NCBI GenBank assembly: GCA_001915545.1
Contig: MNQS01000134.1
Coordinates: 7,663-71,662 of the forward strand
Direction: 5' to 3'
Length of the DNA: 64,000 bases
Origin: Bacteroides sp. 43_108
Lineage (GTDB): Bacteria; Bacteroidota; Bacteroidia; Bacteroidales; Bacteroidaceae
In this document: in pieces, positions 3,983 through 35,082 of the stretch
How positions within the stretch are numbered: the first letter of the stretch is position 1
Layout: each line of letters begins with the position of its first letter
Notes under the pieces: model-generated
The model's database searches: none
Told to the model about the DNA's origin: nothing
Seen by the model: only the letters and a program-made list of their open reading frames with translations
Made by a program: the position numbers and the translations under genes

Positions 3983-6900
3983 TCATCTTACAAGTATCTT
4001 ACGTGCAGAGCCGTCTGAATACCGTACGATTATGAATCCTTTTTCCGGCTTTTCAAGTTTCATGCCCTGCAGGTTGTAATAACCAGTAATCTGTTTTTCA
4101 CTGTCATCTTCAGCAGTGATGTCATCTAAGCCTGTGTCTTCCTTCTTGTCAGTTCTGAACGACATTTCCTCTCCGTAAGTCGTTTCCTTGGAAGTTTTCA
4201 CGTACGTGCGGAATCGGTATTCAGTATCTTCCTTCAGATTTTCTACAGTCGCTTTCATGAGAGTTCCTTCTGACGTTATTGTTGATGCGCCGTTTCTGCT
4301 TTCTGTTCTTTCACGGGTATCGGCATTTTCAGCTGGCCAATATTCGAATCCTTGTTCTGTCACGTCGTCAGATCCTGGAAGTACAGCACCTTTAAGTGTT
4401 GCTGAATTGAATGTTATTTCTGTAGGGGCATAGGTGTATACGATTGGTTCAAAGTATACGTAAGCATCGGACGTGCAGAAGGCTATCCAATCTCCGTAAT
4501 ACGTTATTCCCGAATCCGACTTATAGTAAGGACGATACTTGTAGTAAGTGTTTGAACTCAGATTGTTAAGTGAGCCGGCAATGATGCCGTTGTGTATCGG
4601 ACAAGGTGATTGTGTGGAAGGCATTATGTCCGGTGCATCGTAGCGTCGCCATTCGAAGCCGAATCTGAGTGAATCATCATCTCCGTTGACAGATGCACTT
4701 ATGATTGCCTTCTTGTCGCTCACAGCTTGCGCCGCCTGCGTTTCGAACTTGATGGCTTCGGTTGTGAATGAAATGTTTTTCAATTCTAATCCTCCTTCTT
4801 CAGTATTTACAAAATAAGTTTTTGTAAAACTTGTATTCGGATCTAATCCGTAGAGACGCAGCACGTCTTCTTCATTTTCGGCAAAACCTGAATTCACGTA
4901 AGTTGCATCGATGATGTCGTACGAACCATTGAGTATGCAATATGTACTTCCCAACTTCTTGTCGATGTTGATGCCGATATCTTTGGTGTTGAAAGTCTTG
5001 GATATAGAAGATACACTTCCGTCACTAGTCGTCACGTTGAATGTTACGTAGCACGAACCGCCTGGTATGAGTCCGGTTATTGTCGTTTCGTCTCCGTCGC
5101 CATACTCGCCGAAATCTGTTTTCACAACTTCCGCATCTCCTCCGTATGTTCCCTTAAGCTTAACAGTGAGGTTTGTAGCTTCTTCCAGAATTATGTCGAG
5201 CACCATAGCTTCGGTGCTTACGGAAATATCGCCGCTGACGTCGCGTCCGAAAGCCTTTCCGCTTACATTTATCTTGTGTGTCGCGTTGGGTGCTGCTCCT
5301 GTGAATGTCACACTGCCGTTTTCTGCATTCTTGCTGATGCCGTTGAATGACGCTCCCTCAAGGCTGAAGAAGTCGTGCGAAGACAGGTTTATTGTTGATT
5401 GGGTAGTTTTCGTAAGTACAATTGCACGCACATCCTCATACTGATAGTACCTTTCAACTGCCGCCGGCGAAGTCAATATATGTGCATCTTTCGGCAAATA
5501 AAAAGCTTCGTCAGGGAATGAAATGATATTCTTCAGATTCGTACATTCGCCGAATGTTGTATATCCTATCTCTTTTATGTTGTTGGGGATATTTGCAAAA
5601 ACAATGCTTTCGCATCCGTAGAATGCAAAATCGTTTATTTTCTCGATTGTTTCCGGCACATAAAGGTCGCTGACAACGTTGCCGTTCAGTTTGAGCACAT
5701 GAGCATACATGAGCGGGTTGGAGCTTCCGTCAAACTGGATTGTACACCACAACGCCATATCTCTCATGTCGACATATTTCATGTTGGTGCAGTTGAGGAA
5801 CGCATATCTATCCATGATTCTTACAGATTCAGGAATAGTCACCGAGGTGAAACCTTCGCCTCCTGCAAATGTATACCTCTTTAGCTTTTCAATATCGCCA
5901 GGTATCACCAGATCTTTAACCTCGCTGTTGTCGACATAGAGCCTGTGGGCGTTGTACAGCGGATTTGCATATTCGTTTTCCCAGTTTATCGTACACCACT
6001 GAGACAAATCTGTAATCCATACACCTTCAAGTCTTGTACATCCTTTGAAAGCATTATTTCCTACGATGGCAAGAGTAGGAGCCGCATGAACAGATTTGAG
6101 TCCGTTGCATCCTTCGAACGCATTCTTTTCTATTGTGTAAACCGTATTTCCAAGAACCAGTTCTTCAATAAATCCCATATTCTTGAACCATGGCTTAACG
6201 GTATTTGTGTTGAGAGTTACTTTTTTCAGATTTGTACAGCTGGCGAAAGTGCTGTCGCCAATGTTGGTGATTAAGTTGGGTATCACTACCGATTCTATGC
6301 TTCCGCATCCGTAGAAAGCATAATCATTCAGTGCCGTGGTTGTCGATGGAAGTTCAAGCGATTTGAGCAATTCACCGTTTACGTACATATTCCTTGCATA
6401 GTACAAAGGATTTGCAAAGTAGCGTGTATATACGTCCGTGAAATTGTCGCTGAAGTCAATCTTGTACCACGAACTCAAATCCTTCACATTTATTCCCGTA
6501 AGTGATGCGCATTCAGCAAAAGCGCCACCACCGATTTTTTCAACGTTTTCAGGAATTGTGACAATTGCCAAGGCATCACATCTATTGAATGCCAGGCGAC
6601 CTATGAAAGTTACGGAGGTCGGAATGTCTATAGATGCAAGAACTTTGCATCCGCTGAAGGCCGATTCGCCAATTGTAGTCAGTGATTCGGACAACTTTAT
6701 AGAAGCGAGGCTTACACATGATGCAAAAGCACTCTTATTGATTGATGTTACAGAATTAGGTATTGATATCTCTTTGAGATTCTTGCAAGTAGAAAATGCA
6801 GATTCATCAATCACTTCAATAGATGACGGCAAGGTTATAGATGAAAATATGCCGTTCAAGAAAGCTTTTTTTCCTATTCTCTTGATTGTGTTGGGCAATG

Positions 6901-7501
6901 TGAACGACTGCACATTGCTGTATGAGAAATAATCGTCAGGAATCTCATTATAACCATTCCCAAGTGTAATTTTTGATATGGTACATTTCTTGAAAGGGTT
7001 CGTATCGTATGTAAACACCCTTCCCAGTTGTAGACTTTCCAACGGGCAATACTCGAACAGAGGACCGCTCCTGTATATTTCATGCCGGTTGCTGTCGTAT
7101 ATAATAAAGTCGCTGAGACTGATGTTGCTTTCCCCGTCTTCGAACACCACCTCCTTCAATGCCGTGCATTCCTTGAAGGCATCGCCTCCAATCTTTATTA
7201 TAGAGTTCGGAATTGTCAAGGAAATAAGATTTTCGCATCCGGTGAAAGCTTCCGCTGAAATTTCTTCAACGCTGTATGTTGTTCCGTCGTTGCTTATACT
7301 CGAAGGAATTACCATATTCCCCCTATAGTATTTGTCGTTCTGATACAGATGTCTGTATGTCACCCTCGCTTTGTTCCCGCTCAACAGGTCATAGGCAATG
7401 TCATCTATTATCACATCGTATGCATTGACGCATTCCCCAATAGCCACGAATGCAATCATTGCTGAAAGCATTCTTGCTTTAATTACTGAAAGTATCTTCA
7501 T
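3983..7501 (-). CDS. BspA-like leucine-rich-repeat surface protein
   Basis: A large secreted protein (1172 residues) with an N-terminal signal peptide ending near ECVNAYD. From about residue 70 to 690 it carries many LRR_5/BspA-type repeats, seen as recurring units such as AFxGCxxLxSVxIPxSVxxIG. The middle and C-terminal parts (roughly 700-1120) look like Ig/fibronectin-type beta domains. The last ~30 residues (YNLQGMKLEKP ... SARKILVR) resemble the C-terminal sorting tail found on many Prevotella secreted proteins. Such proteins bind host matrix proteins or other bacteria in known cases (BspA of Tannerella); the ligand here is unknown. It is transcribed alone, with tandem repeats bearing promoter motifs upstream. 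Confidence 0.88.
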   Translation of the reverse strand: MKILSVIKARMLSAMIAFVAIGECVNAYDVIIDDIAYDLLSGNKARVTYRHLYQNDKYYRGNMVIPSSISNDGTTYSVEEISAEAFTGCENLISLTIPNSIIKIGGDAFKECTALKEVVFEDGESNISLSDFIIYDSNRHEIYRSGPLFEYCPLESLQLGRVFTYDTNPFKKCTISKITLGNGYNEIPDDYFSYSNVQSFTLPNTIKRIGKKAFLNGIFSSITLPSSIEVIDESAFSTCKNLKEISIPNSVTSINKSAFASCVSLASIKLSESLTTIGESAFSGCKVLASIDIPTSVTFIGRLAFNRCDALAIVTIPENVEKIGGGAFAECASLTGINVKDLSSWYKIDFSDNFTDVYTRYFANPLYYARNMYVNGELLKSLELPSTTTALNDYAFYGCGSIESVVIPNLITNIGDSTFASCTNLKKVTLNTNTVKPWFKNMGFIEELVLGNTVYTIEKNAFEGCNGLKSVHAAPTLAIVGNNAFKGCTRLEGVWITDLSQWCTINWENEYANPLYNAHRLYVDNSEVKDLVIPGDIEKLKRYTFAGGEGFTSVTIPESVRIMDRYAFLNCTNMKYVDMRDMALWCTIQFDGSSNPLMYAHVLKLNGNVVSDLYVPETIEKINDFAFYGCESIVFANIPNNIKEIGYTTFGECTNLKNIISFPDEAFYLPKDAHILTSPAAVERYYQYEDVRAIVLTKTTQSTINLSSHDFFSLEGASFNGISKNAENGSVTFTGAAPNATHKINVSGKAFGRDVSGDISVSTEAMVLDIILEEATNLTVKLKGTYGGDAEVVKTDFGEYGDGDETTITGLIPGGSCYVTFNVTTSDGSVSSISKTFNTKDIGINIDKKLGSTYCILNGSYDIIDATYVNSGFAENEEDVLRLYGLDPNTSFTKTYFVNTEEGGLELKNISFTTEAIKFETQAAQAVSDKKAIISASVNGDDDSLRFGFEWRRYDAPDIMPSTQSPCPIHNGIIAGSLNNLSSNTYYKYRPYYKSDSGITYYGDWIAFCTSDAYVYFEPIVYTYAPTEITFNSATLKGAVLPGSDDVTEQGFEYWPAENADTRERTESRNGASTITSEGTLMKATVENLKEDTEYRFRTYVKTSKETTYGEEMSFRTDKKEDTGLDDITAEDDSEKQITGYYNLQGMKLEKPEKGFIIVRYSDGSARKILVR

Positions 7502-7585
7502 ACAATTAGATTTTGGTTAAATAGTAATGAAATATTTGTTGTATAATCGCTTTTGTTGATTTGTTCACCCGTATGTGATTCGTTT

Positions 7586-7801
7586 GCAAATATAGTGAAA
7601 GGTGAGCGCAGAGGCAAGCGAAAACATTTTTGTTTTGGATTGCATATGCCGAACCGCATCCTATATTATGAAAATATAGTGAAAGATGAGCGCAGAGGCA
7701 AGTGAAAACATTCTTGTTTTATATTGCGTATGCCGAACCGCATCCTATATTATGCAAATATAATGAAAGGAGAGTGCAGGGCAAGCGAAAACATTTTTGT
7801 T
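7586..7801. repeat. 84-bp tandem repeat, 2.5 copies
   Basis: Units start at 7586, 7670 and 7754 with an exact 84-bp period; the third is truncated after about 48 bp. Copies share the segment AATATAGTGAAAGRTGAGCG and a distal GCCGAACCGCATCC block, with a few substitutions. The array fills most of the gap between the LRR gene start and rplT, and no gene lies in this stretch. Confidence 0.9.
7587..7784 (-). promoter_or_regulatory. Promoters embedded in the 84-bp repeats, facing the LRR gene
   Basis: On the minus strand repeat 1 has TTG (7615-7617), 20 bp, TATATTTG (7587-7594). Repeat 3 has TTG (7782-7784), 19 bp, TATATTTG (7755-7762). Repeat 2 has the same layout but TATATTTT, a weakened -7 box. 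The nearest would start transcription about 80 bases before the LRR start codon. Confidence 0.6.
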
Positions 7802-7840
7802 TGCTGTATGCTTTTTGCTGAAGTGTATAAAAACAAAAAA

Positions 7841-7868
7841 AAGGAATGAGTCTTTCGACCCATTCCTT
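7841..7868 (-). terminator. Terminator of the infC-rpmI-rplT transcript
   Basis: A 12-bp stem with one mismatch (7841-7852 with 7857-7868) and a four-base loop, followed on the minus strand by a run of T residues, just downstream of the rplT stop. Confidence 0.85.
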
Positions 7869-7889
7869 AAAACCATATTTCAGAATGAT

Positions 7890-8234
7890 TTATTTCACTT
7901 TCTCAACGATAGCCTTGAATGCTTCGTAGTGGTTCATTGCAAGGTTGGCGAGAGTCTTGCGGTTGATCTCGATTCCAGCCTTGTGGAGAGCACCCATGAG
8001 CTGTGAATAAGACATGCCTTCCATTCTTGCAGCTGCGTTGATACGCTGAATCCACAGTGCGCGGAAGTCACGCTTCTTGCGCTTGCGTCCTACGTATGCA
8101 TATGTCAAACCCTTCTCATACGCATTTTTTGCAACTGTCCAAACGTTCTTGCGAGCGCCGAACTGGCCTTTGACACGCTTTAAAATCTTCTTTCTTCTTG
8201 CTCTTGAAGCAACGTGGTTTACTGATCTTGGCAT
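7890..8234 (-). CDS. rplT: 50S ribosomal protein L20
   Basis: An rRNA-binding protein needed early in assembly of the large ribosomal subunit. At 114 residues it is full length and begins [19 protein letters not shown], with the strongly basic N-terminal extension that threads into 23S rRNA and the conserved [14 protein letters not shown] core. It is the last gene of the infC-rpmI-rplT cluster on the minus strand and is followed by an intrinsic terminator. In other phyla L20 represses this operon through a leader or internal mRNA structure; I did not find a clear equivalent here. Confidence 0.98.
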
Positions 8235-8352
8235 AATTTTGAATCTTTTTGAATGCTAGCGCCACCTTAATCTTCCCAGATGGTGAACTTTAGGCTAAAC
8301 ACTCTGTTAAACATTTTTTTGTTAGTTAAAATCTTTTGCTCGTCACAGTTTT

Positions 8353-8550
8353 TTAACGAAGTGTAAGACAATCGCGAACCTGCTTGCGGTTAGCCTTTAC
8401 AACATTTGTTGAATGATCGAGGTTTCTCTTCTGCTTCTTAGTCTTCTTTGTCAGAATGTGACTGTGGTAAGCGTGCTGTCTTTTGATTTTTCCTGTGCCT
8501 GTGAGCTTGAAGCGCTTCTTTGCGGCAGATTTAGTTTTAACTTTTGGCAT
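8353..8550 (-). CDS. rpmI: 50S ribosomal protein L35
   Basis: A small basic protein of the large ribosomal subunit. The 65-residue product starts at [14 protein letters not shown], which is the family N-terminus; the frame stays open further upstream (to 8613) but those 21 residues have no family match, so the start at 8550 is chosen. The sequence is rich in lysine and arginine with the typical [17 protein letters not shown] block. It lies between infC and rplT in the order seen across bacteria. Confidence 0.97.
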
Positions 8551-8632
8551 TTTTTTTTGATATTTAATTATTACTGTAATTGGTGGCAACGTATATACCA
8601 GGACGTTACGCACACATAATTTTCTTTAGTTC

Positions 8633-9259
8633 TTATTCTTCAGCCTCGCCGTCTGTTTCAGCTTCAGCCTTGGCGCTTGCTTCCTTGGCTTTCTCCTCTG
8701 TCTTTGCCGGTTTCGGCTGTGCCTTCTTAGGTGTACCAGGCTTCTTCGGTGCAAGCATGATGCTCATACGCTTTCCTTCGAGTATCGGCATGCTCTCCAC
8801 CTTGGCAATTTCCTCAAGGTCGTTTGCGAATCTCAGAAGGAGCACTTCGCCCTGTTCCTTGAATAGGATGGAGCGTCCTTTGAAGAATACGTAGGCCTTT
8901 ACCTTGTTGCCGTCGTTGATGAATTCCTGAGCATGTTTCAGCTTGAAGTTGTAGTCGGCATCAGCTGTCTGAGGTCCGAAACGTATTTCCTTAACTTCCA
9001 CTTTGACCTGCTTGGCCTTCATGTCCTTTGCCTTCTTCTTCAGCTGGTAAAGGAACTTTGAGTAGTCAATAAGTCTACAAACTGGAGGAACGGCATTAGG
9101 TGAAATTTCTACAAGATCAACGCCTTTCTCTTCTGCCAATTGTATCGCCTTGCTAGTCGGTATTACTGTCGACTCTATATCGTCACCTACGATTCGAACT
9201 TCGCGTACTCGTATCTGTTCATTTACGCGATACTGTTGCTTTTTATTGTCAAATTTCAT
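8633..9259 (-). CDS. infC: Translation initiation factor IF-3
   Basis: Binds the 30S subunit, prevents premature 50S joining and monitors start-codon and initiator-tRNA fit. The 208-residue product has the N-terminal domain ([18 protein letters not shown]), the lysine-rich linker ([12 protein letters not shown]) and the C-terminal domain ([20 protein letters not shown]). A tail of about 35 residues rich in K, P, A and E follows the normal C-terminus, a common Bacteroidetes feature. The start is ATG, not the rare ATT that many species use to autoregulate infC. It follows thrS by 69 bases, in the conserved order thrS-infC-rpmI-rplT. Confidence 0.98.
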
Positions 9260-20184: not shown

Positions 20185-21524
20185 ATGAAAAAAATAATAG
20201 CTTCAAATTGTATAGGATTGGTAGATGCAGACCTTTTGGACAATGGAACGCGTCATCCTAATCTTGTATTGTTGAAACTGGCGGGTTATTTTCGTGAGCA
20301 TGGTATACCTTATGAACTAATTATTGATACTGAGGCAAATCTTGAATGCTACCAGCGAGTTTACCTTTCTTGTGTTTTTGTATTTACAAAACTCCCCAAG
20401 TTTGTTACTGATTTTCAAATGAAACATCCGAAAACATGGAGGAATAAACTACATATGGGGGGGACGGGATTTTATGCTACAGAGGAAGACCGAGAGAAGT
20501 TTGACGAGATGCGTCGTAAAGATATGGCCCAACTTGCTATGGATCCATTTTTACCAGGATTCTCAATGGCTCATCAAATGCCGGATTATAATATTTATAT
20601 TCCTTATATTGAGCGTGAGATTGAAAAAAAGTAAATGAGGAGAGCAAAAAGTTACAGAAGAAAAACGGTACTGCTCCAACTCCACAAGAAATAGATGCAA
20701 TAGCTGTAAAGTGTCGTAAGAAATACAAGGATTATCTGGATTATAGTATTGGATTTCTTACTCGTGGTTGTATCCGCCAATGTCCATTTTGTGTAAATAA
20801 GGGCGAACGTAGTATCTTGCCATATTCCAATCTTAATGATTTCGTTGACGATAGTCGCCCGTTTATTTATCTCTGGGACGATAATTTTTTATGCTATAAA
20901 AATTGGAAAGCTTTGCTTCAGGAACTTATTGATAGAGGTAAACCTTTTCAATTTCGGCAAGGATTAGATGAACGCGTCTTAGATGACGAACGAGCTGAAA
21001 TGCTCTGTAAAGCACCTTATCATGGTGACTTCATTTTTGCCTTTGATCAATGGAAGGATTGTGAACTAATTAAACGTAAGTTGAAAATATGGAAGCGGCA
21101 CTGTCCTACAAAAACAACCAAGTTTTATTTGTTCTGTGGTTATGAGCTAACAGCGGATGATGACGAAAAGTTATTTACTGATGTTTATTTTTTGTTCTGC
21201 AGAATTCAAATACTTATGAGTTTCGGCTGTCTTGGTTATGTTATGCGTCACGCTGATTATATAAACCATCGTCTTGGTAATATTTATACACAAGTAGCGC
21301 GATGGTGTAATCAACCTCAGTTTTATAAGAAAATGTCTTTTGAGGAGTTTGTATTTAGAAATCAATCTTATCAAGAAGAGCATTCTTCGTCTAAAAAGAT
21401 TTGTAAGTCACTTGCCACATACAAAGAATTTAAGGATACATTTGCAGATAAGTGGGGGCAGATTGAACCCTTATTTAAAATGAAATATGAATCTACAATA
21501 AATCCAGTTAACTGGGAAGGGTAA
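20185..21524 (+). pseudogene. Radical SAM protein, split by a one-base frameshift
   Basis: Two adjacent frames read as one protein of about 446 residues. The N-terminal part (MKKIIASNCIGLVDADLLDN) resembles the Rossmann-like, cobalamin-binding-type domain often placed before radical SAM cores. The second part carries CIRQCPFC (20769-20792), the CX3CX2C motif that holds the 4Fe-4S cluster and generates a 5'-deoxyadenosyl radical. The first frame stops at TAA 20632-20634 directly after A7-G; reading one base back continues smoothly (VNEESKKLQKK). The cysteine motif lies in the gap between the two ATG-started frames, so it is made only if the frames are joined. ATG 20185 is preferred over GTG 20146. 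dptF begins 5 bases after the stop, so it belongs to the dpt transcript. Substrate unknown; a role in DNA modification or signalling is speculation. Confidence 0.78.
20624..20634 (+). other. A7-G frameshift site in the radical SAM gene
   Basis: Zero-frame codons are GAA AAA AAG TAA. Bases 20625-20631 form A AAA AAG, the heptamer used for -1 programmed frameshifting in dnaX; a -1 slip restores the downstream frame. A lost A in a run of eight, by mutation or sequencing error, explains it equally well. I see no convincing downstream stimulator stem. Confidence 0.7.
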
Positions 21525-21529
21525 GAAAT

Positions 21530-23200
21530 ATGGATGAAACAGCACTTGTAAAAATATTTAGAAGGTTATGTCAAGGGTCTAAAGAGTCTGTTCAAAGTGG
21601 TTTGGAACTTGATAAGTTTGACAATTATATGCACGTTGAACGACCTATTGATAAGGCCGTTAGAGATACAATGGATGAGATCCGCATTGAAGGAGGTGGT
21701 ATTTTGTTTTTAGTAGGTAGTGCCGGTGATGGCAAATCGCATATGATTTCAACTTTGAAAAATGATTATGCTGATTTTGAGTTTAGGAACGATGCTTCTG
21801 AAAGTCCTTGGCCAAACGTTGCATCTATTGATGCATTGAAAATCTTTCTTAATAACTACAAGGATGCAACTCTCCATACAACAACTACAAAAATGCTTGT
21901 AGCTATTAACATGGGAAAGTTGAGCGCTTTTATTGATGATGACGAAGTACAAACAGAGTTCTCAGAAATAGCTAATTGTGCAAGGACGCTCTTCGATGAG
22001 GACGATCTTCGTCATAAAGAGACAAATCGTGTGAGGATTGTGTCTTTTGCCAATCATCAGATTTTTGAGTTATTCCCGGAGTATAAAGATTCCATATATC
22101 CGATAGATTCATTTTTTATTAAAAAAGTACTTAGTAAGATTACGGACAATTCATGCGACAATTTTTTTCGAACAGCGTTTAACAATTCAAAACCTGTTGG
22201 AACAGATTTTGATCCTTGTTATGTTAATTACCAACTACTCTGCATTCCTGCTTTACAGGATACTATTGTAAAAATTATCATTGAGGCAATTATTCGCTTC
22301 AAATTGATGTTGACTCCTCGTGAGTTATTCGATTTTATCTACAGAATTGTTATACCTGATAGCTATGAAACATTCAATTCTAGCAAGGACTTTTTCAAAT
22401 CGTTGTTACCAAGTCTATTGTTCGAAGGTGGAGAAAACAAGATAATGAAATGTCTATCAATGCTTGATCCGCTTAAGCATGGAAGTATTGAACATAATGA
22501 CTACTTAGCAGAGTTGTTTACATCAGTAGCAATTCCTGAAGCAGAGTGTTTTAGCATTCTCAAAAGTAGGTTACATCCTCGATTTTTTGAGATCATTGAT
22601 GAATATTACAAGAATAACAGATATAACATTGGGGATATTTCGAAACTTTTGTTTCGTATGAAGCATTTGATGAAGTATCACTCTGAATCCGTTGAGTATA
22701 GATCATTTCTTAGCATACTATGCGGTTACTATGATAATGATGAGGATCGTTTGTTCCCCCTTTATGAAACTATACAACGTAGTATTCCTCATTTATATGG
22801 CTCATACACAGACAAACAAAATTTAGTTCCTCTTGATATACAAGGCAAGGAATACAAATTATTTGTCAGTTGTGATAACTTGAAGCCAAATCCTCAGGAA
22901 ACAGTACCTTTTGATGTAAACAATCGTAATAAGTTTGTTGTCGAAATAGTTTCTTATTGGAAGATAAATGCTCCTGTACCGCCACTTAAAGTAGAGTATC
23001 AGTTGTATGAATACTTATGTAAGATCCAAAAGGGAAAACTGGCACAAACTGATGACCGCAATCACAATCTTTTATTTTACGGCTTTATTAGTAATTTAGT
23101 ACAACAGACGGATTTTAAAGAAAAGGTTATTATCCTTACTTCAGATAATCAGCAGTTAACATTATCACGGACATTCGGTAAAAAAATCACATTGAAATGA
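21530..23200 (+). CDS. dptF: DNA phosphorothioation-dependent restriction protein DptF-like ATPase
   Basis: A 556-residue P-loop ATPase. Residues 63-71, GSAGDGKSH, form the Walker A motif within the DptF-like context MHVERPIDKAVRDTMDEI ... GGILFLVGSAGDGKS, and the following FRNDASESPWPN stretch also fits the family. In known systems DptF, DptG and DptH (DndFGH) form the restriction module that attacks DNA lacking phosphorothioate marks made by DndABCDE. Its stop overlaps the start of dptG by four bases (ATGA), implying translational coupling. Codon usage is AT-rich, unlike flanking housekeeping genes, consistent with horizontal acquisition. The assignment is from remembered family features and length; I am fairly sure. 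Confidence 0.82.
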   Translation: MDETALVKIFRRLCQGSKESVQSGLELDKFDNYMHVERPIDKAVRDTMDEIRIEGGGILFLVGSAGDGKSHMISTLKNDYADFEFRNDASESPWPNVASIDALKIFLNNYKDATLHTTTTKMLVAINMGKLSAFIDDDEVQTEFSEIANCARTLFDEDDLRHKETNRVRIVSFANHQIFELFPEYKDSIYPIDSFFIKKVLSKITDNSCDNFFRTAFNNSKPVGTDFDPCYVNYQLLCIPALQDTIVKIIIEAIIRFKLMLTPRELFDFIYRIVIPDSYETFNSSKDFFKSLLPSLLFEGGENKIMKCLSMLDPLKHGSIEHNDYLAELFTSVAIPEAECFSILKSRLHPRFFEIIDEYYKNNRYNIGDISKLLFRMKHLMKYHSESVEYRSFLSILCGYYDNDEDRLFPLYETIQRSIPHLYGSYTDKQNLVPLDIQGKEYKLFVSCDNLKPNPQETVPFDVNNRNKFVVEIVSYWKINAPVPPLKVEYQLYEYLCKIQKGKLAQTDDRNHNLLFYGFISNLVQQTDFKEKVIILTSDNQQLTLSRTFGKKITLK

Positions 23201-24672
23201 TTGGGTTCTCAGAAACAAACTTTCTCAGGGAGTATATTAAACCTAAGAAGGATAAAAAGACAGGTATGATTAAGGATAAGTTAGAGGATAACTTCCAAAC
23301 AGGCAAACAGAAGTTACTTCCTTTTACTCTTAATCCTATAAGCGGTAGTGTATATGATGGTAACTGTGGTTTAAATGGTGTAACAGGTGAGTTTTATCGT
23401 ATAAAGGTGAACTCAACAGTTGAGCCTATCTACTCTCCACAAGACACCGAAAAAACTTTGCGTAAAGAACTGAAAAACAAGTTTAAGATGCCAGCTGATG
23501 ATATTGAGCGCTTCGTCAAAGTGTTCAATGATGTGATGTTTGAAAATGAAACTATCAACGTAATTGACCTCTCGTTTTTTTCTTTCGTACCTATGAAATA
23601 TTTTGGTAAAGCCCATGATAAAAATAAGAGAGTGAATAAATACAAGAGTGGTCAATCTAAGATTGCTGACTATTATGTGTCTATTGCTGAAAATATTGGT
23701 GTGGAGTTTGATATGAAAGAAAAAGACTTATTCTCAGAGGTGGTGAATGAATGCTTGCAAAAGGATTCTTTCGTTACCCGTGCAGAGCGTGACAAATACT
23801 TCATTTTACCTTTTGTAAAATCTCAATTTTCAGAGGACATCAAATGGTTGATGAAGCAAAACAATAACATCATTGTAAAATATTTGCCATTAATGCTTTA
23901 TTTCTACGCATCATACTCACTTATGCAGACACTGATGTTCATGAATAAGGCTAATTGGCAATACTCAACAGATAAGCCACGTCCGATAACTTTCATGTTG
24001 TCATCTGAACGTGCATCAGAAGGACAGGCTGCAGTAAAGAAAGGTTGGTCAGCTCAAGATCATTTTCCTGAAACTTTCCTAAATAAGTTATCTGCTTATG
24101 CGCAGACACTTGATATTCTTAACTCCATGTTTGAGGATGAGGAGGAACTAATGACATTCCATTCCATTTTGGAACGTTTCAGGAAAATGGAATTTACCGA
24201 GGAAGCGAAATCCATCTGCGAAAAGGTCCTTAATACGTATCAGGATTACAAATATGAACTGCTAGAAGGCCGTGAAACAGAACCACATCCAATAGCAGAT
24301 AAGAAAGAGGTAAATATCAATAGCTTTGAAGAGTTTGTGGACCTTCTTTTGGATCGTTGTTTGACTTATCAGTCAATTGACTACCCACGTATGAAAGTGG
24401 CACTTTATTCTCTTGTCAGTATCAAGATGTTTGAAAAGAGACGAGACTACAGTGTGCTTGTTCTTGACGAGGAAATGCTTTTATTTCTAGTTGCCATGAT
24501 GGTAAAGGAAGACAGAATACGTATGGAGGAACTCTATAAAAGATTCCATGAGTATGGCATTGATTTTTCTTTCCAGACAAAGAATGCCATTAGTGATTAT
24601 TTACTTAAGTTAAACCTATTAGAACGCAAGAGCGATTCGGGAGAAGCACAATATGTACGAGTTGTTTTTTAA
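23197..24672 (+). CDS. dptG: DNA phosphorothioation-dependent restriction protein DptG-like
   Basis: A 491-residue protein without recognisable catalytic motifs. The segment LPLMLYFYASYSLMQTLMFMN followed by RPITFMLSSERASEG and a tryptophan-containing KKGWSAQDHFPE is what I recall of the DptG family, and the position between dptF and dptH supports it. In characterised systems DptG is required together with DptF and DptH for phosphorothioation-dependent restriction, though its biochemical role is less clear than that of DptH. The C-terminal part (about 380-490) looks all-helical and may be a winged-helix-like domain (KAISDYLLKLNLLERK-like pattern). The gene overlaps dptF by 4 bases and dptH by about 20. 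Confidence 0.78.
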   Translation: MIGFSETNFLREYIKPKKDKKTGMIKDKLEDNFQTGKQKLLPFTLNPISGSVYDGNCGLNGVTGEFYRIKVNSTVEPIYSPQDTEKTLRKELKNKFKMPADDIERFVKVFNDVMFENETINVIDLSFFSFVPMKYFGKAHDKNKRVNKYKSGQSKIADYYVSIAENIGVEFDMKEKDLFSEVVNECLQKDSFVTRAERDKYFILPFVKSQFSEDIKWLMKQNNNIIVKYLPLMLYFYASYSLMQTLMFMNKANWQYSTDKPRPITFMLSSERASEGQAAVKKGWSAQDHFPETFLNKLSAYAQTLDILNSMFEDEEELMTFHSILERFRKMEFTEEAKSICEKVLNTYQDYKYELLEGRETEPHPIADKKEVNINSFEEFVDLLLDRCLTYQSIDYPRMKVALYSLVSIKMFEKRRDYSVLVLDEEMLLFLVAMMVKEDRIRMEELYKRFHEYGIDFSFQTKNAISDYLLKLNLLERKSDSGEAQYVRVVF

Positions 24673-27600
24673 TTTCCTTATCGAAGAACTATTGGTTCGT
24701 TATTTTAAGAAGATTAACGTAGAGCCTGGTGATAAGTTCTACATAGTAATAGAAGATGTCGTATTTCGTCAGAACTTTTATAAGTCGTTACATAATTCTG
24801 CATTTACTTATAAGCAGAAAATCTGTTTTCCCGGTTATGAGAAATATGGTATAGGGGCATCCGAATATGATACCGTTGCATTTAAATGTACAAATAATGG
24901 AACACAGATTATCGTAAGTGGTTGTGATGATGCTGGTGATGGCTTCCAAACGATGATACGAAACAATATTGGAGTCGCTGACAATCCTATTAGCGAAATG
25001 GCAGCTCTTTTCATTCTTCCTGGCAATAATGCCATTGAGACTTTGTTGAGTGCAGGTAGAAACTTACAAGAAAAGCCATATCCTTTGTGCCTGGATTCTA
25101 TTACTCAAGCTATCTATAATAAAATAGAGGGCAAGATCAATATTATAGAAAAGGAGTATCTCCGCAATCATGTTAAGCGTCTTTGTTTAGAGGACGATTA
25201 TACCTCATTGTTTGACTTTGCACCTGTATTCTCCATCCTTCAGAAATCAAGCTTGAAAGGTAACTTTGCCATGCTTGACACATTCGAAGACTCTGAGATC
25301 TATGATAACATGTTTGCTGCAACAGACATCAACATCAAGGAACGTGTGAAAGACAATGCAAGTGCATTTGCCACTATTAGTGAAATGATGAGTGAAGCGT
25401 ATGAGCAAGATCAGTACAAACGCTTATGTACATATCTGGACGCAAAACTAGCAAGTAAGATTTCATGTGGCAAGGTTAATTGGAAGATGCTTGACTATAA
25501 GGAAATTCGTAAGAGTCATGAATTTGTAGTGGGCAATCCGACCATAACACGACCTCGATTCAAAGTTGATGGGAGTGCAGAACTTTTGGTTAACATTACA
25601 GGGCCGAAGAATGAGAAGACCTCAAAGAGTTTTGTTATAGTATGCGATCCTATTCTTTCTTCCAGAAGTCTTAAAGCTTGTTTTAACAAGGAGCTAAAGG
25701 ATTATCTACATGGTAAGGTTGCAAAAGTTTCTGGATGCAACCTTTTGTTCAATTTAACGAAGAAGGTTCAGAAAGACAAAATTGGTGACGAAAAAAACTA
25801 TCATGAGGTGTCTGTTATTCAATTGCAGACCAAGAATGTATTCCAAAGTATTTCTCATTATTTTACCATTGATGCGAATGGAAATATAGTGGTTAATGTA
25901 CCTGACTCAGAAGATGGTTTTACTATTGGCTTAGGTACTAATTTTATAACATATGACGGAATTTCACCAGTTGAATTAGATGACAATACGGCCATTCGCG
26001 TTAACATTGACCATAATGCAACAGACGAACCTATCATTCCATTTAAATTTGGTGATAAAATTCTCAATATACGATTCAAATACAAAGGTGATAAGACCCC
26101 AACCTTAACTCCTGGTTCTGTTATTGATTCTATTTGGGGAGAAGAAGAGGGTGGTTATACACATGATGGTGAAGATGGTGATATTACTGGCACTGTTAAT
26201 GGGCCTCAAGGTCCTGTTTACATTCACGATCGTTTTCGTAAGTTGGTAAGTTTGGAGAAACGCATGGTCGATCAGGAATCTCCATATTTATATATAGAGA
26301 AGAATGAATTTAGCGGTGAAGATAATACAAAGACACAAAACTTTTCAATTGCTTACGATATTGATTTAGCACTCTCTAGAATCTTCAGGTATTTCAAGAA
26401 CATGAATACTGTTCCTTCATTTATACGACCAGATGAAGAATTATGCAAACTTTATAAGCATTATATTGATGCTGTACACAAGAATATGCAAAACATATCA
26501 ACAGTAGAAAGCTTTAATAATACTGATTCGTTTAATATAGCTAAACTGGGTGTTGTCGAGAAGGAAGATGGTACAATAATGTTGTCCCCTTTTCATCCTC
26601 TAATGGTGTCATATGCTTTACAAATGGTTGAATCCGTTGATTCGGTAGAGTACAACAAAAAGGTAATAGATGAGCTTTCACCTCTCTACTTGATGCCATA
26701 CATTTATTATGGGAATAGCGTGTTGAAGGCTATCAGTAGCACTGAAACAGAAGACATTCTCACATGGGTGAAATACGATAAAGCTGATAATGCACAGCAT
26801 ATTTACGGTTCTAAATCAACATCAAAATTGATAACGGATAAGATTAAAAATTTCATTGACAACTTCAAATATTATTTCCCTGATGTTGATTGTCCTATTC
26901 GCATTAGTGCCATTGGATTATCACAATCTGTTGACCTCGTCCGTGGAATTGTTGGTTTTATTGATGCTAGTAGAAAGAAAGGAAATGTACAGCGAATAGA
27001 AGTTCACGAGTATGTTGAAGACATGCTGTCAGATACTTTTTTTGAAAAACTCAATCGTCAGTCAACACGTGACAATATCTCTCAGTTGTTTGAAAAATAT
27101 AACTTTAACGTAGCAGACAAGGAGTTGAATGAGATTATCCGTTTGCTTTTTAGCAGAGTGAGTTATTACAAACACACTTTCAGGGATACCCGCAAGATGG
27201 ATGAGTACAGCCATGTAACATTTTATAAGATTAATTCAGGAACTAATTATACTCCATTACCAGCCAATCAACTTAGAACTGAGGCCTCTCTTGATGGTCT
27301 TGTTTCAATTCCTTCCACAAATCTTAACGGTAGTAACTACTTGATGGGATTCGGTACACGTGGCATGAAGCAGAACGATAGTCCGATATACCAAATGGCA
27401 AAAGATATGAATAGTCTTTATGCCAATTTGCAGAATGAAGGTTTGGCTTCATACAGTCCTGGTCAATGTACCGCCAAAAGGTATAGTTTTAAGGATGCTG
27501 ATTTCTTGCAATCGGTTTATGACAATTCTACTTGGGTGACTTTTGTTTATCCAGAAGTTGATATTGATTTTTTTCTATAAGCAGAAGAATATCTATGTTG

Positions 27601-29879
27601 TGCACTATGTCGAGCAACATTCTATCTCTGCGCGTTTGGAGAGTATAACAGTAACACAACATGTTATCCAGTACAATAAAATGCTCTTTAACTCTCTTCA
27701 AGCCTTCAAGTCGATTATCGGTACAAGTGAGGATTTCAGCCGTAAGATGATTAGCTATTTTAATTGCTTAAACGGAAAATGGCTATTGGAAATTTCCGGA
27801 AAACCTGAACTTATCATGCGCGAGAAGATGAGCCTTGTAGCAACCTGCTTTGTCATGAAACATTTTCTTAATCGTACTGATAATATCGTATGGGTACCTA
27901 TTGCACTTGATGAGATTATGCGTGCTACTGGTTCCATCGGTACAACACAGGACGGATTGTTTTCGAAGAAAGATCTTGGCCTTGATGGACCTATTTCCGA
28001 TGACATACTGATGATGGGTATTCGTCGTAATGATAATGATGAGGTGGATGTGTTCTTCTATCCGGTTGAGGTTAAAGTACTTTCTAATGATTCTGTCAGC
28101 AAAGGTGAGATACAGGTAGCAAATCTCTATAATAATGGGTTTAGGAAAGTCCTTTTTAAAGGAGACACGTTTACCCGAAAAGTTTACAGAGCTTTGTTCG
28201 CATCGCGGTTTTTATCCAATGCAGAAAAGATGCATGCTAACGATCTTATTGCGGATGTTGACTATGAGAAAGTTAATGCATCTCGTTATGAGTTACTTAA
28301 TGTAAAGTTTAAAATCATTGAAAAACTTCCAGAAGAAATTGGTAAGGCAGCACTTGTGGTTTATTCAGATGCTACACCAAAGTCGTTAAGTACAGAATGG
28401 ATAGATGACGTACCTGTATGTCACATTCGTATGATGGAGTCTGATTGTTATCGCATTGTGGCTAACCCAGATAGCGCTCTCCTACAATTTGTTGAGGAAT
28501 CGCCTATTGTAGTAACAGCAAAGCCTGAAACTGATTTATCATTGATACCTTTATGTTGTTCTTCAGATTATACCACTTCACTTCATAAACTCGATGTTGT
28601 TGAATCAGAAAAAGATTGTACTGAAGATAAGAATATAGGAGAAGAACCATTAGTAATGCCTTTGAAGTCTTGTTCTGATGATGATAATTATCTAGAACAG
28701 ATTGACGGATTTTCTCAAGGTGTTAAGGTCAGAATTGGCAAAGATAGAAAGGGGACACCGATAATCTTTGAAGCCAATAATACAAAAAAAGTTTCTCATC
28801 CTAACATGGGTATTGTTGGAGGAATGGGCTTTGGTAAGACGCAATTTGCCCTCTCTCTTATTGCTCAATTTGCCAAAGAAAGTGAACACAATGTTAATGG
28901 ACGTCCTATTGGCATGTTGATATTCGACTATAAGGGCGATGACTATTCTACAGAGGCATTTCTTAACAATGTTAATGGCCAATGCTATAGTTTCAACTTT
29001 CCATTCAATCCTCTTAAACTTGTCGTAACGGATAAAACTAAGTTTATGAATCTGCCAGCTGTAACTGCAGATAGAATAAGTGACTCGTTTGCAAAGGCAT
29101 ACGGGTTAGGACAGGTACAACAGAGCACTATCAAGCAGGTGATTCTTGAAACATACAATGATTTCGGAATTACTAGTAATCCTTCTACATGGAACAAACT
29201 ACAACCAACGATGAGTAATGTCGTGGATAAGTATTTCGAAAAATACGATGCTAAGGATAAAACTTACGCTTTGTTTGATAAACTCAGAGATTATATGATT
29301 TTCACTCCCAATAATAGCGAGTGTGTATCTCTGTTTGAATGGCTTGATGGCGTAAAGGTAATTGATTTGACTCCATATCCTGGAGACACGAAGAAAGTTA
29401 TCGTATCTTTAATTCTTGATCTGTTTTATGAAGAGATGAGGCAGTTGGGTGCAAGTAAACTGGATGATCCATATAGAGAGTTACGTGCCATGATTCTTGT
29501 AGACGAAGCACATCAATTTTTAAACAAGGATTTCAACTCTTTCCGTAATATCATTAGTGAGGGGCGTATGTTTGGTGTTGGTATGGTACTTTCTACACAA
29601 AATCTATCAGATTTTAAATCTGCAAAGCAGGAATATTCACAGTTTATTCTTAGTTGGGTAATACTCCATATGAACAATATAACAAAGTCTGAAGTCGCAA
29701 ATATCTTTGGTTCGAACGATCCAAATTGTCAGGTTTACGTGGATGTTGTGAGTAAAGCAGAGAAGTTCTACGGCATCTGTAAGATTGGTAACGAAGTAAA
29801 AGCTATTCGCATTTTACCATATTATGAGCTTATAAAAAGCGACGAACGTTTCTTGAAAAATATAGAAACTGAAGGATAA
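24653..29879 (+). pseudogene. dptH: DptH-like HerA/FtsK-type ATPase, split by a one-base frameshift
   Basis: Two frames, 24653-27580 and the frame ending 29879, read as one protein of about 1740 residues once a single T is skipped at 27568-27574; this matches the normal DptH size of about 1700. The N-terminal ~970 residues have no motif I can name. After the junction comes a candidate PD-(D/E)xK nuclease core: DDIL (near 27997) and PVEVK (near 28063-28077) with the E-x-K signature. The C-terminal part is a HerA/FtsK-type motor with Walker A GGMGFGKTQ (28819-28845) and Walker B MILVDEAHQ (29490-29516). In known systems DptH provides ATPase and DNA attack. As sequenced, the nuclease-like and motor parts are detached from the N-terminal part. 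The transcript ends at the hairpin 29962-29999. Confidence 0.8.
27568..27580 (+). other. T7 frameshift site in dptH
   Basis: Codons GAT TTT TTT CTA TAA end the first frame. Removing one T gives GAT TTT TTC TAT AAG and continues into the downstream frame (YKQKNIYVVHYVEQ). The change is an extra T in a run of six, or a +1 slip of tRNA-Phe from TTT to TTC. Confidence 0.8.
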
Positions 29880-29999: not shown

Positions 30000-30080
30000 T
30001 ATGCACAGCAAACTTTATTTTCTAAATCTAGTTGTAATTTATTGTATATCAATAATTAATACAGATTCTGTTGTTTGCTG
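29962..30080 (-). ncRNA. Candidate tracrRNA next to the CRISPR array
   Basis: On the minus strand the bases at 30042-30031 (ATAAATTACAAC) pair with the first 11 bases of the CRISPR repeat read in the GTTGTGATTTGC orientation, nine Watson-Crick and two G-U pairs, as an anti-repeat should. Downstream come AAAATAAAGTTTGC, which resembles the region after the anti-repeat in known type II-C tracrRNAs (for example Campylobacter), and then the strong hairpin 29962-29999. A promoter inside the adjacent repeat would start a transcript near 30080, giving about 118 bases. The upper part of the duplex is weak. This is inference; no cas9 is present to test it against. Confidence 0.45.
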
Positions 30081-30339
30081 TAGTGCAAAAATACTAAATT
30101 GAAAGCAAATCACAACTATATTGCATAGTACAAAATATAGTATACTGTTGTTTGCTGTAGTGCAAAAATACTAAATTGAAAGCAAATCACAACTAAGGAG
30201 TTCGGAAACCTTATCAGCATGAGTTGTTTGCTGTAGTGCAAAAATACTAAATTGAAAGCAAATCACAACCTCAATACGGACAGGGATACGCCTAAAGCAG
30301 TTGTTTGCTGTAGTGCAAAAATACTAAATTGAAAGCAAA
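30070..30339 (-). CRISPR. Orphan type II-C-like CRISPR array, 4 repeats and 3 spacers
   Basis: Repeats of 47 bp lie at 30070-30116, 30147-30193 and 30223-30269 and are identical; a fourth at 30300-30339 is truncated after 40 bp. Spacers are 30, 29 and 30 bp (30117-30146, 30194-30222, 30270-30299) and unrelated to each other. On the minus strand the repeat begins GTTGTGATTTGCTTTCAATT and ends CAGCAAACAAC, closely like the 47-bp type II-C repeats of Bacteroides fragilis. Minus orientation is preferred because of that match, the internal promoter and the anti-repeat. No cas gene lies within the window, so the array depends on Cas9 encoded elsewhere or is a relic. Confidence 0.93.
30086..30115 (-). 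promoter_or_regulatory. Promoter inside each CRISPR repeat (first copy given)
   Basis: Within the repeat on the minus strand TTG (repeat positions 2-4), a 19-bp gap and TATTTTTG (positions 24-31) match the Bacteroidetes promoter consensus. Every full repeat carries it, so each spacer could be transcribed from its own upstream repeat. Confidence 0.6.
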
Positions 30340-34354: not shown

Positions 34355-34427
34355 GCGGAAATAGCTCAGTTGGTAGAGCACAACCTTGCCAAGGTTGGGG
34401 TCGCGAGTTCGAGTCTCGTTTTCCGCT
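34355..34427 (+). tRNA. tRNA-Gly(GCC), copy 1
   Basis: Full cloverleaf: acceptor GCGGAAA pairs with TTTCCGC, the anticodon loop TTGCCAA gives GCC (34388-34390), and the T-arm has GTTCGAGTC. No CCA is encoded. First gene of a five-tRNA cluster. Confidence 0.97.
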
Positions 34428-34457
34428 CAAAGAGGCCTTCGGACGGGCAAATGAGTT

Positions 34458-34538
34458 GCCCAAGTGGCGGAATGGTAGACGCGCTCGTTTCAGGTGCGAG
34501 TGTTTCACGACGTGCAAGTTCGAGTCTTGTCTTGGGCA
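34458..34538 (+). tRNA. tRNA-Leu(CAG)
   Basis: Class II tRNA: acceptor GCCCAAG with CTTGGGC, anticodon stem CTCGT/GCGAG around loop TTCAGGT gives CAG, a long variable arm, then AAGTTCGAGTCTT. Confidence 0.96.
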
Positions 34539-34574
34539 CATTCTCAATGTTAGATGGAAAGCTTTTTTTATGAT

Positions 34575-34656
34575 GGAGAGGTGGCGGAATGGTAGACGCG
34601 CTACTTTGAGGGGGTAGTGTGCACGGCACGTGGGAGTTCGAGTCTCCTCCTCTTCA
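34575..34656 (+). tRNA. tRNA-Leu(GAG)
   Basis: Class II tRNA: acceptor GGAGAGG with CCTCTTC (one G-U pair), anticodon stem CTACT/GGTAG around loop TTGAGGG gives GAG, long variable arm, T-arm GGGAGTTCGAGTCTCCT. Confidence 0.95.
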
Positions 34657-34671
34657 CATAAACAAATGAAT

Positions 34672-34744
34672 GCGGAAATAGCTCAGTTGGTAGAGCACAA
34701 CCTTGCCAAGGTTGGGGTCGCGAGTTCGAGTCTCGTTTTCCGCT
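34672..34744 (+). tRNA. tRNA-Gly(GCC), copy 2
   Basis: Identical in sequence to the tRNA-Gly at 34355-34427, with the same 73-base length and anticodon GCC. Confidence 0.97.
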
Positions 34745-34793
34745 CCAGTTTTAGTTCTACGGATTCTGACTTTCTAAGGAAAGATTCAGTGTT

Positions 34794-34866
34794 GCGGAAA
34801 TAGCTCAGTTGGTAGAGCACAACCTTGCCAAGGTTGGGGTCGCGAGTTCGAGTCTCGTTTTCCGCT
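34794..34866 (+). tRNA. tRNA-Gly(GCC), copy 3
   Basis: Identical to the two upstream tRNA-Gly copies; last gene of the cluster. No integrase gene or duplicated tRNA end is visible beside it. Confidence 0.97.
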
Positions 34867-35082
34867 CAAAGTCAAAATTTGATTTTTCAGTTTTAAGAAG
34901 AAGATATCGCCCAATAAGCGGTATCTTTTTTCGTTTTCAGAAGGTGGAGCAGGAGAGCGGTTTCTCTATTTTTTTACTCTCTATGCTCTCTGGCTTTCAA
35001 ATCTTTTTTTCTGCTTTTGGCGGAATGTTTGGCGAATTGCCGGCAAACGCCCCGTGAATTAAGTTTTGTAGAACTGCCATCG

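Follow-up and report, generated by a model that had tools for sequence, protein, structure and literature searches.

A radical SAM gene ahead of dptFGH in Bacteroides and its possible role as an exchangeable DNA-marking enzyme

What makes the DNA mark, if there is one, for a DptFGH restriction module that stands behind a radical S-adenosylmethionine (SAM) gene and not beside phosphorothioate modification genes? The question is raised by a 64,000-nucleotide stretch of Bacteroides sp. 43_108 (contig MNQS01000134.1; here called the window), in which a radical SAM gene (rSAM) heads an operon with dptF, dptG and dptH, also known as dndF, dndG and dndH. How DndFGH operates where modification genes are missing is an unsettled question on which two views have been published, one invoking undiscovered modifiers (PMC7464106) and the other solo action of the module (PMC10853773). 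In human-associated bacteria, restriction genes without modifying genes were reported in >60% of the Bacillus strains studied, from which undiscovered modifying systems in those strains were inferred (accessible text of PMC7464106). The premise of the initial annotation of the window, that DptFGH needs marks, is disputed in print (accessible text of PMC10853773). Among the dptF genomes that we searched, rSAM and DndC are complementary, and rSAM may be an interchangeable maker of a DNA mark that heads dptFGH and at least three other, unrelated anti-virus operons. We put at roughly 0.6 the probability that rSAM supplies the DNA-marking half in a defence system akin to restriction-modification.

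The operon consists of the following pieces, all on the forward strand.

20185..20634, +, rSAM piece a: N-terminal Rossmann-like domain, ending in a stop at 20634; matches the N-terminal part of the full-length relative P0001 by eye
20631..21524 (start approximate), +, rSAM piece b: in another frame, with the CxxxCxxC core and the C-terminal part; 97% identical to P0001
21530..23200, +, dptF/dndF: P-loop protein of the restriction module; PADLOC DndF 8e-85; TIGR03238 135 bits, cut-off 50
23197..24672, +, dptG/dndG: PADLOC DndG 2e-40; TIGR03236 85 bits, cut-off 20
24653..27580, +, dptH/dndH N-terminal piece: DndH profile 1-966 of 1715, 9e-116
27543..29879, +, dptH/dndH C-terminal piece: HerA/FtsK-type ATPase (DUF87/TrwB); DndH profile 963-1708 of 1715, 3e-175

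Five bases separate the rSAM stop from dptF, dptF and dptG overlap by 4 bases and dptG and dptH by 20, and the GC fraction of the block is 0.34-0.38, with 0.44-0.53 in the left flank and 0.50-0.59 in the right. All three products score in PADLOC as DndF, DndG and DndH; DptF and DptG exceed their NCBIfam cut-offs, and both DptH pieces fall below the 620-bit cut-off of TIGR03237. The gene order, tight spacing and AT-richness agree with the initial annotation, which had read four genes here; however, rSAM and dptH are each broken into two frames, which it had overlooked. Its identification of the upstream protein as a radical SAM enzyme is borne out by the CxxxCxxC motif in piece b, the cysteines of which (C212, C216 and C219) are invariant in 72 aligned relatives. 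Its statement that modification genes are missing beside the operon is borne out for DndC: blastp with DndC from four loci found no DndC-like frame elsewhere in the 64-kb window.

A search with the C-terminal piece of rSAM returned 2007 relatives at E <= 0.001. Neighbourhoods were compared in the best 80 of 86 confirmed rSAM loci from one GTDB genome scan with a 21-sequence profile, its reach being limited by the use of two exact peptide patterns. Open reading frames (ORFs) were predicted, their products clustered (c2, c8 and so on) and the neighbourhoods classified; domains were named from Pfam and PADLOC scans of a single member of each cluster. The order rSAM-dptF-dptG-dptH (type A) was found in 12 of the 80 loci, two of them near-copies (L013 and L015), and since it recurs in these 12 other loci it is above chance. 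DndC was searched for with the TIGR03183 cut-off in 62 of the 80 rSAM genomes, the 18 left out being mostly those with short or untyped loci. It was above the cut-off in none of the 12 type-A genomes (one gave a 19-bit partial match) and in one of the 50 others (L057, genome G440, type C).

DptF genomes were also collected from taxonomic samples. DptF was above its cut-off in 1/393 genomes of the order sample (the centre genome only), in 4/399 of the family sample (all four known type A, centre included), in 3/395 of the phylum sample of the L029 genome (the centre and two more), and in 1/339 and 2/338 of the phylum samples of the L062 and L054 genomes, respectively; because the order sample gave a single genome, the share of rSAM-preceded dptF in Bacteroidales rests on few genomes. 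Five DptF genomes lay outside type A, four with a full-length DptF and one with a fragment. The four full-length cases have DndC on the same contig in 4/4, 3-14 kb away, and a search for rSAM gave no match in three and a 22-bit partial match in one; one of the empty searches lacked a positive control, the same query having matched two known genomes in a separate search. For rSAM versus DndC (12:0 versus 0:4), Fisher's test gives p = 5.5e-4, or p = 7.3e-4 with the near-copies L013/L015 counted once, in a table that leaves out the fragment-bearing genome G1746 and whose 12 type-A genomes were chosen for the rSAM.

The initial annotation had asked whether rSAM precedes dptF, and DndC is missing, in other loci as well, and both hold in 12 further loci. 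One of its options, that the modification genes lie elsewhere, is not supported by the genomes of the relatives. It amounts to a classical Dnd system, with dndBCDE at another site and rSAM incidental, and retains some room for the window strain, for which the DndC search covers the 64-kb window only. The lack of DndC in all 12 intact-operon genomes, including L019 (Prevotella sp. tc2-28) and L035 (Paraprevotella clara YIT 11840), which are not titled metagenome-assembled genomes (MAGs), and in the window itself makes this explanation extremely improbable. Another option, a variant in which rSAM does the marking or sensing, fits best, with DndC in 0/12 dptF genomes that have rSAM and in 4/4 with full-length dptF that do not.

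The remaining loci place rSAM ahead of other gene sets. In type B (27/80 loci) it is followed by a NERD-helicase protein, a protein of c. 790 amino acids (aa), DrmA and DrmB; a locus was assigned to this type on at least one of these four clusters, which are present in 24, 23, 21 (DrmA) and 19 (DrmB) loci, contig ends having cut several. Type C (18/80) has PbeA-like and PbeC/DndD-like proteins, with a third protein of c. 150 aa in 11 loci. In type D (8/80), rSAM precedes a ParB-like protein, a c. 138-aa protein, a SNF2 helicase and a second ParB-like protein, the ParB resemblance being weak (17 bits against a cut-off of 26; PHROG 620 at 3e-5). The other 15 loci include L038, where the contig ends after rSAM, and seven with a C5-methylase-like gene, a kind of gene found in 2/65 typed loci (L060 and L023). 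Clusters c2, c13 and c12 had no match in Pfam, PADLOC or PHROGs, and c8 had none in Pfam or PHROGs. A RecQ-type helicase gene (c23; domain called in L013) lies right after dptH in the type-A loci L013, L015 and L019.

Defence genes cluster and hitch-hike, and rSAM could accordingly be a defence-island passenger or a regulator, biochemically unlinked to the effectors. A helix-turn-helix gene (c20; Cro/C1-type, domain called in L041) lies upstream of rSAM in six loci (L001, L032, L038, L039, L041 and L051), as a regulatory role might lead one to expect; these genes are reminiscent of restriction-modification controller proteins. However, the gene after rSAM is on the same strand in 65/65 type A-D loci, with a gap or overlap of <=60 bases in 62, and rSAM is fused to another domain (c12) in many type-C loci, which goes beyond loose co-localisation; the family also occurs beside DNA methyltransferase genes on viral contigs. 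We therefore consider a mere passenger or regulator very unlikely.

Different effector sets stand behind closely related rSAM genes. In a maximum-likelihood tree of 79 rSAM sequences, the type-A label requires 10 changes, 9 of them forced by well-supported branches (shuffled mean 12.3), and all five labels together require 27, versus 44.7 when shuffled. The changes are fewer than in shuffled trees, yet many, so the types are clustered but exchanged repeatedly. The window rSAM piece clusters first with L001 (type A) and next with L002/L003 (type B), with support of 100/100. Between L008 (type A) and L009 and L080 (type B), a DNA match of ~83% extends across the greater part of the small upstream gene and almost all of rSAM, the proteins of which are 91% identical; the match stops 13-30 bases before the 3' end of rSAM, and nothing matches beyond. 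Conversely, L008 and L013, both type A, have DptFGH proteins that are 87-92% identical, whereas their rSAM proteins share only 76% identity and their small upstream genes are quite different. Judged from these sequences, effector sets are swapped behind rSAM, given that its tree forces no fewer than nine changes of the dptFGH label. The rSAM-linked DptF proteins form one group, separate from the four DndC-linked ones (support 100/99), a split that may partly reflect taxonomy.

The small upstream gene, c8 (84-118 aa), lies directly upstream of rSAM in 14/80 loci (L008, L009, L011, L013, L015, L018, L030, L032, L043, L050, L052, L053, L063 and L080). Because most of c8 falls within the rSAM DNA match in L008/L009, it travels with rSAM there. 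A c8-like stretch was also seen in L001, in or beside a 702-aa TPR protein. Neither c8 nor c12 was found in the window.

What could the rSAM protein do? The predicted fold of P0001 contains a radical-SAM barrel and is about equally like B12-type radical SAM enzymes and MiaB/RimO, at 8-15% identity. The initial annotation had called the enzyme B12-type; the fold allows for this, although MiaB/RimO are equally close and DxHxxG was not seen by inspection of the 21-sequence alignment. DxHxxG is the cobalamin motif of B12-dependent radical SAM enzymes, and some B12 enzymes do without it. Methylthiotransferases hold a second cluster with conserved N-terminal cysteines; in the 72-sequence alignment there is no invariant or near-invariant cysteine before position 212. 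The Pfam Radical_SAM cut-off (PF04055) was not reached, P0001 having no Pfam match and the L048 relative scoring 23.4 bits against a cut-off of 29.5, and the two window halves had no match in Pfam, PADLOC or NCBIfam; P0001 does match PHROG 9298, a "radical SAM domain protein". Profiles of rSAM and c12 matched none of the sequences of solved structures. MiaB acts on RNA (tRNA), RimO on a ribosomal protein, MgmA on a protein, and AprD4 and TsrM on small molecules. The rSAM protein differs from the methylthiotransferases MiaB, RimO and MtaB and from the two-domain radical SAM enzymes MgmA, AprD4, TsrM and OxsB in having no conserved N-terminal cysteines, no visible B12 motif and, in P0001, no Pfam match.

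The closeness in fold to MiaB and RimO would suit an accessory enzyme that modifies an effector protein, tRNA or the ribosome while DptFGH stands alone. The accessible text of PMC10853773 describes DndFGH as often decoupled from modification and acting alone, which points the same way. However, the coupling is complementary, DndC being absent with rSAM and present without it, and it is difficult to conceive of one protein substrate shared by four effector sets that are unrelated; we judge such an accessory role to be unlikely. A slightly less probable possibility, in our estimate, is that the product of rSAM is a small molecule with an antiviral or signalling role, as with viperin, to which the effectors respond or alongside which they work. 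Prokaryotic viperins are antiviral radical SAM enzymes (accessible text of PMC12926258), and the P-loop domain of DndF is predicted to sense nucleotides (accessible text of PMC10853773). The fold matches listed for P0001 do not include viperin, which still leaves room for a viperin-like enzyme. We are aware of no nucleotide sensor that DptFGH, DrmAB and PbeA/C share, although no search for one was made, and the phage copies of rSAM often lie beside DNA methyltransferase genes, which, like the c12 fusion, speaks against a small-molecule product.

On viral contigs, adjacency of rSAM to DNA methyltransferase genes is frequent. One phage (PV036431, L081) has at 3988-8899 a SAM-synthetase-like gene, a gene for ParB plus an N6/N4 methylase, rSAM and a C5 methylase; it resembles a cassette for DNA modification equipped with its own source of SAM. 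Two further contigs classed as viral carry rSAM with effector-like genes, PbeA-like in L100 and ParB-like, c16 and SNF2-like in L102, so viruses or prophages may be vehicles for the defence modules.

DNA marking is the simplest common denominator of these observations because rSAM occupies the position of a modification enzyme, DndC is missing there, the effectors act on DNA, and the phage copies have methylase neighbours. That DNA is the substrate and that DptFGH reads the mark are inferences, as is the nature of the mark. Under the DNA-marking hypothesis, rSAM, with SAM and a [4Fe-4S] cluster, would mark host DNA, most likely by attaching a small group, such as methyl or methylthio, to a base; that the mark sits on a base and is a methyl or methylthio group is suggested only by the modelled fold. 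DptFGH would attack unmarked DNA, as it does DNA without phosphorothioate in classical Dnd hosts. The rSAM protein would be a portable marker behind which DISARM-like, PbeA/PbeC-like, SNF2/ParB-like and DptFGH sets are exchanged. In many of the systems with other effector sets c12, often fused to rSAM, would probably pick the DNA site, and in the DptFGH type DptFGH itself may choose it. The wider proposal, that a new rSAM-made DNA modification is a self-mark readable by four or more unrelated restriction machineries (DptFGH, DrmAB, PbeA/C and SNF2-ParB), with exchanged effectors and with phage copies that disguise DNA, we rate at somewhat short of even odds.

Several points weigh against DNA marking. 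To our knowledge, none of the enzymes closest in fold (MiaB, RimO, MgmA, AprD4 and TsrM) acts on DNA. Cluster c12 is absent from 12/12 dptFGH loci and from 25/27 DISARM-like loci; its weak resemblance to DNA-recognition domains of restriction enzymes has a score in the range of chance resemblance, and Foldseek found no match for it at E <= 0.001. Ten of the 12 rSAM-dptFGH records are MAGs (L019 and L035 are not titled as such), two of the records are near-copies, and the four DndC-bearing comparison genomes are taxonomically unlike most rSAM genomes. L057 carries both a PbeA/PbeC-type rSAM and DndC, and G1746, with a 162-aa DptF fragment, has neither DndC nor rSAM. Moreover, PMC10853773 separates DndFGH from DndABCDE and, in its accessible text, argues that DndFGH works without a modification module.

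As for the window copy itself, the frame of rSAM breaks between ~20,620 and 20,640, beside a run of A, and that of dptH between 27,543 and 27,580, beside a run of T, leaving two pieces in different frames and two ORFs, respectively. In 12/12 relatives with this operon, rSAM (about 450-490 aa) and dptH (about 1750 aa) are single ORFs. The 235-aa rSAM piece belongs to a cluster of 13 sequences across 6 contigs, so that break is not limited to one contig, although all six could stem from copies of a single genome. No second case of the dptH break came up: no cluster matched either window piece in full length and identity (full-length DptH lay outside the length filter), and this break may be a strain mutation or an assembly error. 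Since both genes are broken, the window copy of the operon is probably inactive. Decay, the third option of the initial annotation, is thus probably also true of this copy, but not of the relatives, in which both genes are intact.

To the left of the operon lie secreted- or outer-membrane-like genes and to its right a UvrD/PcrA-like helicase gene, as we take them to be from their translations. A small CRISPR-like array follows dptH at 30070-30339, with 47-bp repeats (three full and one incomplete) and spacers of ~30 bp. Downstream of the uvrD-like gene are five tRNA genes (Gly-Leu-Leu-Gly-Gly, 34355-34867), which could be a hotspot for insertions close to the defence block. A tandem repeat at 7588-7802 has an 84-bp unit in 2.6 copies with an 89% match.

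In the literature search, for which most subscription papers were outside reach, no link of a radical SAM gene such as rSAM to DndFGH, DISARM or Pbe was found. The accessible texts of PMC8569181, PMC3226654, PMC12926258, PMC4158269, PMC5379612 and PMC9716671 do not describe the association. In that of PMC10853773, "radical SAM" occurs twice, only about DndC, and in that of PMC12458937, which reclassifies YprA/DrmA systems, "rSAM" is absent and "radical" appears only as "radically". In Bacteroidales and relatives, the rSAM protein offers a specific candidate for the missing modifier that experiments can test. If it does mark DNA, it would represent a novel class of DNA-modifying enzyme, and its self-mark would be common to several defence systems.

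How, then, does this family compare with known systems? DISARM, in which DrmA and DrmB go with a DNA methylase, has its counterpart in type B, the largest of the sister groups, where DrmA- and DrmB-like genes (both called in one representative, L009) follow rSAM; in contrast to DISARM, type B begins with rSAM and adds the NERD-helicase and c. 790-aa proteins. Two phage-derived methylase models found no DNA methylase in the 27 type-B loci, a test confined to these two models and to the sequence of the loci; past DrmB, ~1.1 kb is visible in five loci and no sequence at all in another, and a methylase or DrmC may lie further downstream. Type C shares PbeA-like and PbeC/DndD-like proteins with the PbeABCD and CxC ABC-ATPase systems, but has rSAM, fused to c12 in 13/18 loci, instead of phosphorothioate genes, with DndC in 1/18 genomes (L057). 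Finally, the window and its type-A relatives share with Dnd/Dpt (DndABCDE plus DndFGH) the proteins DptF, DptG and DptH, in the usual order and recognised by their profiles; here, however, DndC is absent from the window and from the relatives' genomes, and it is rSAM that heads the operon.

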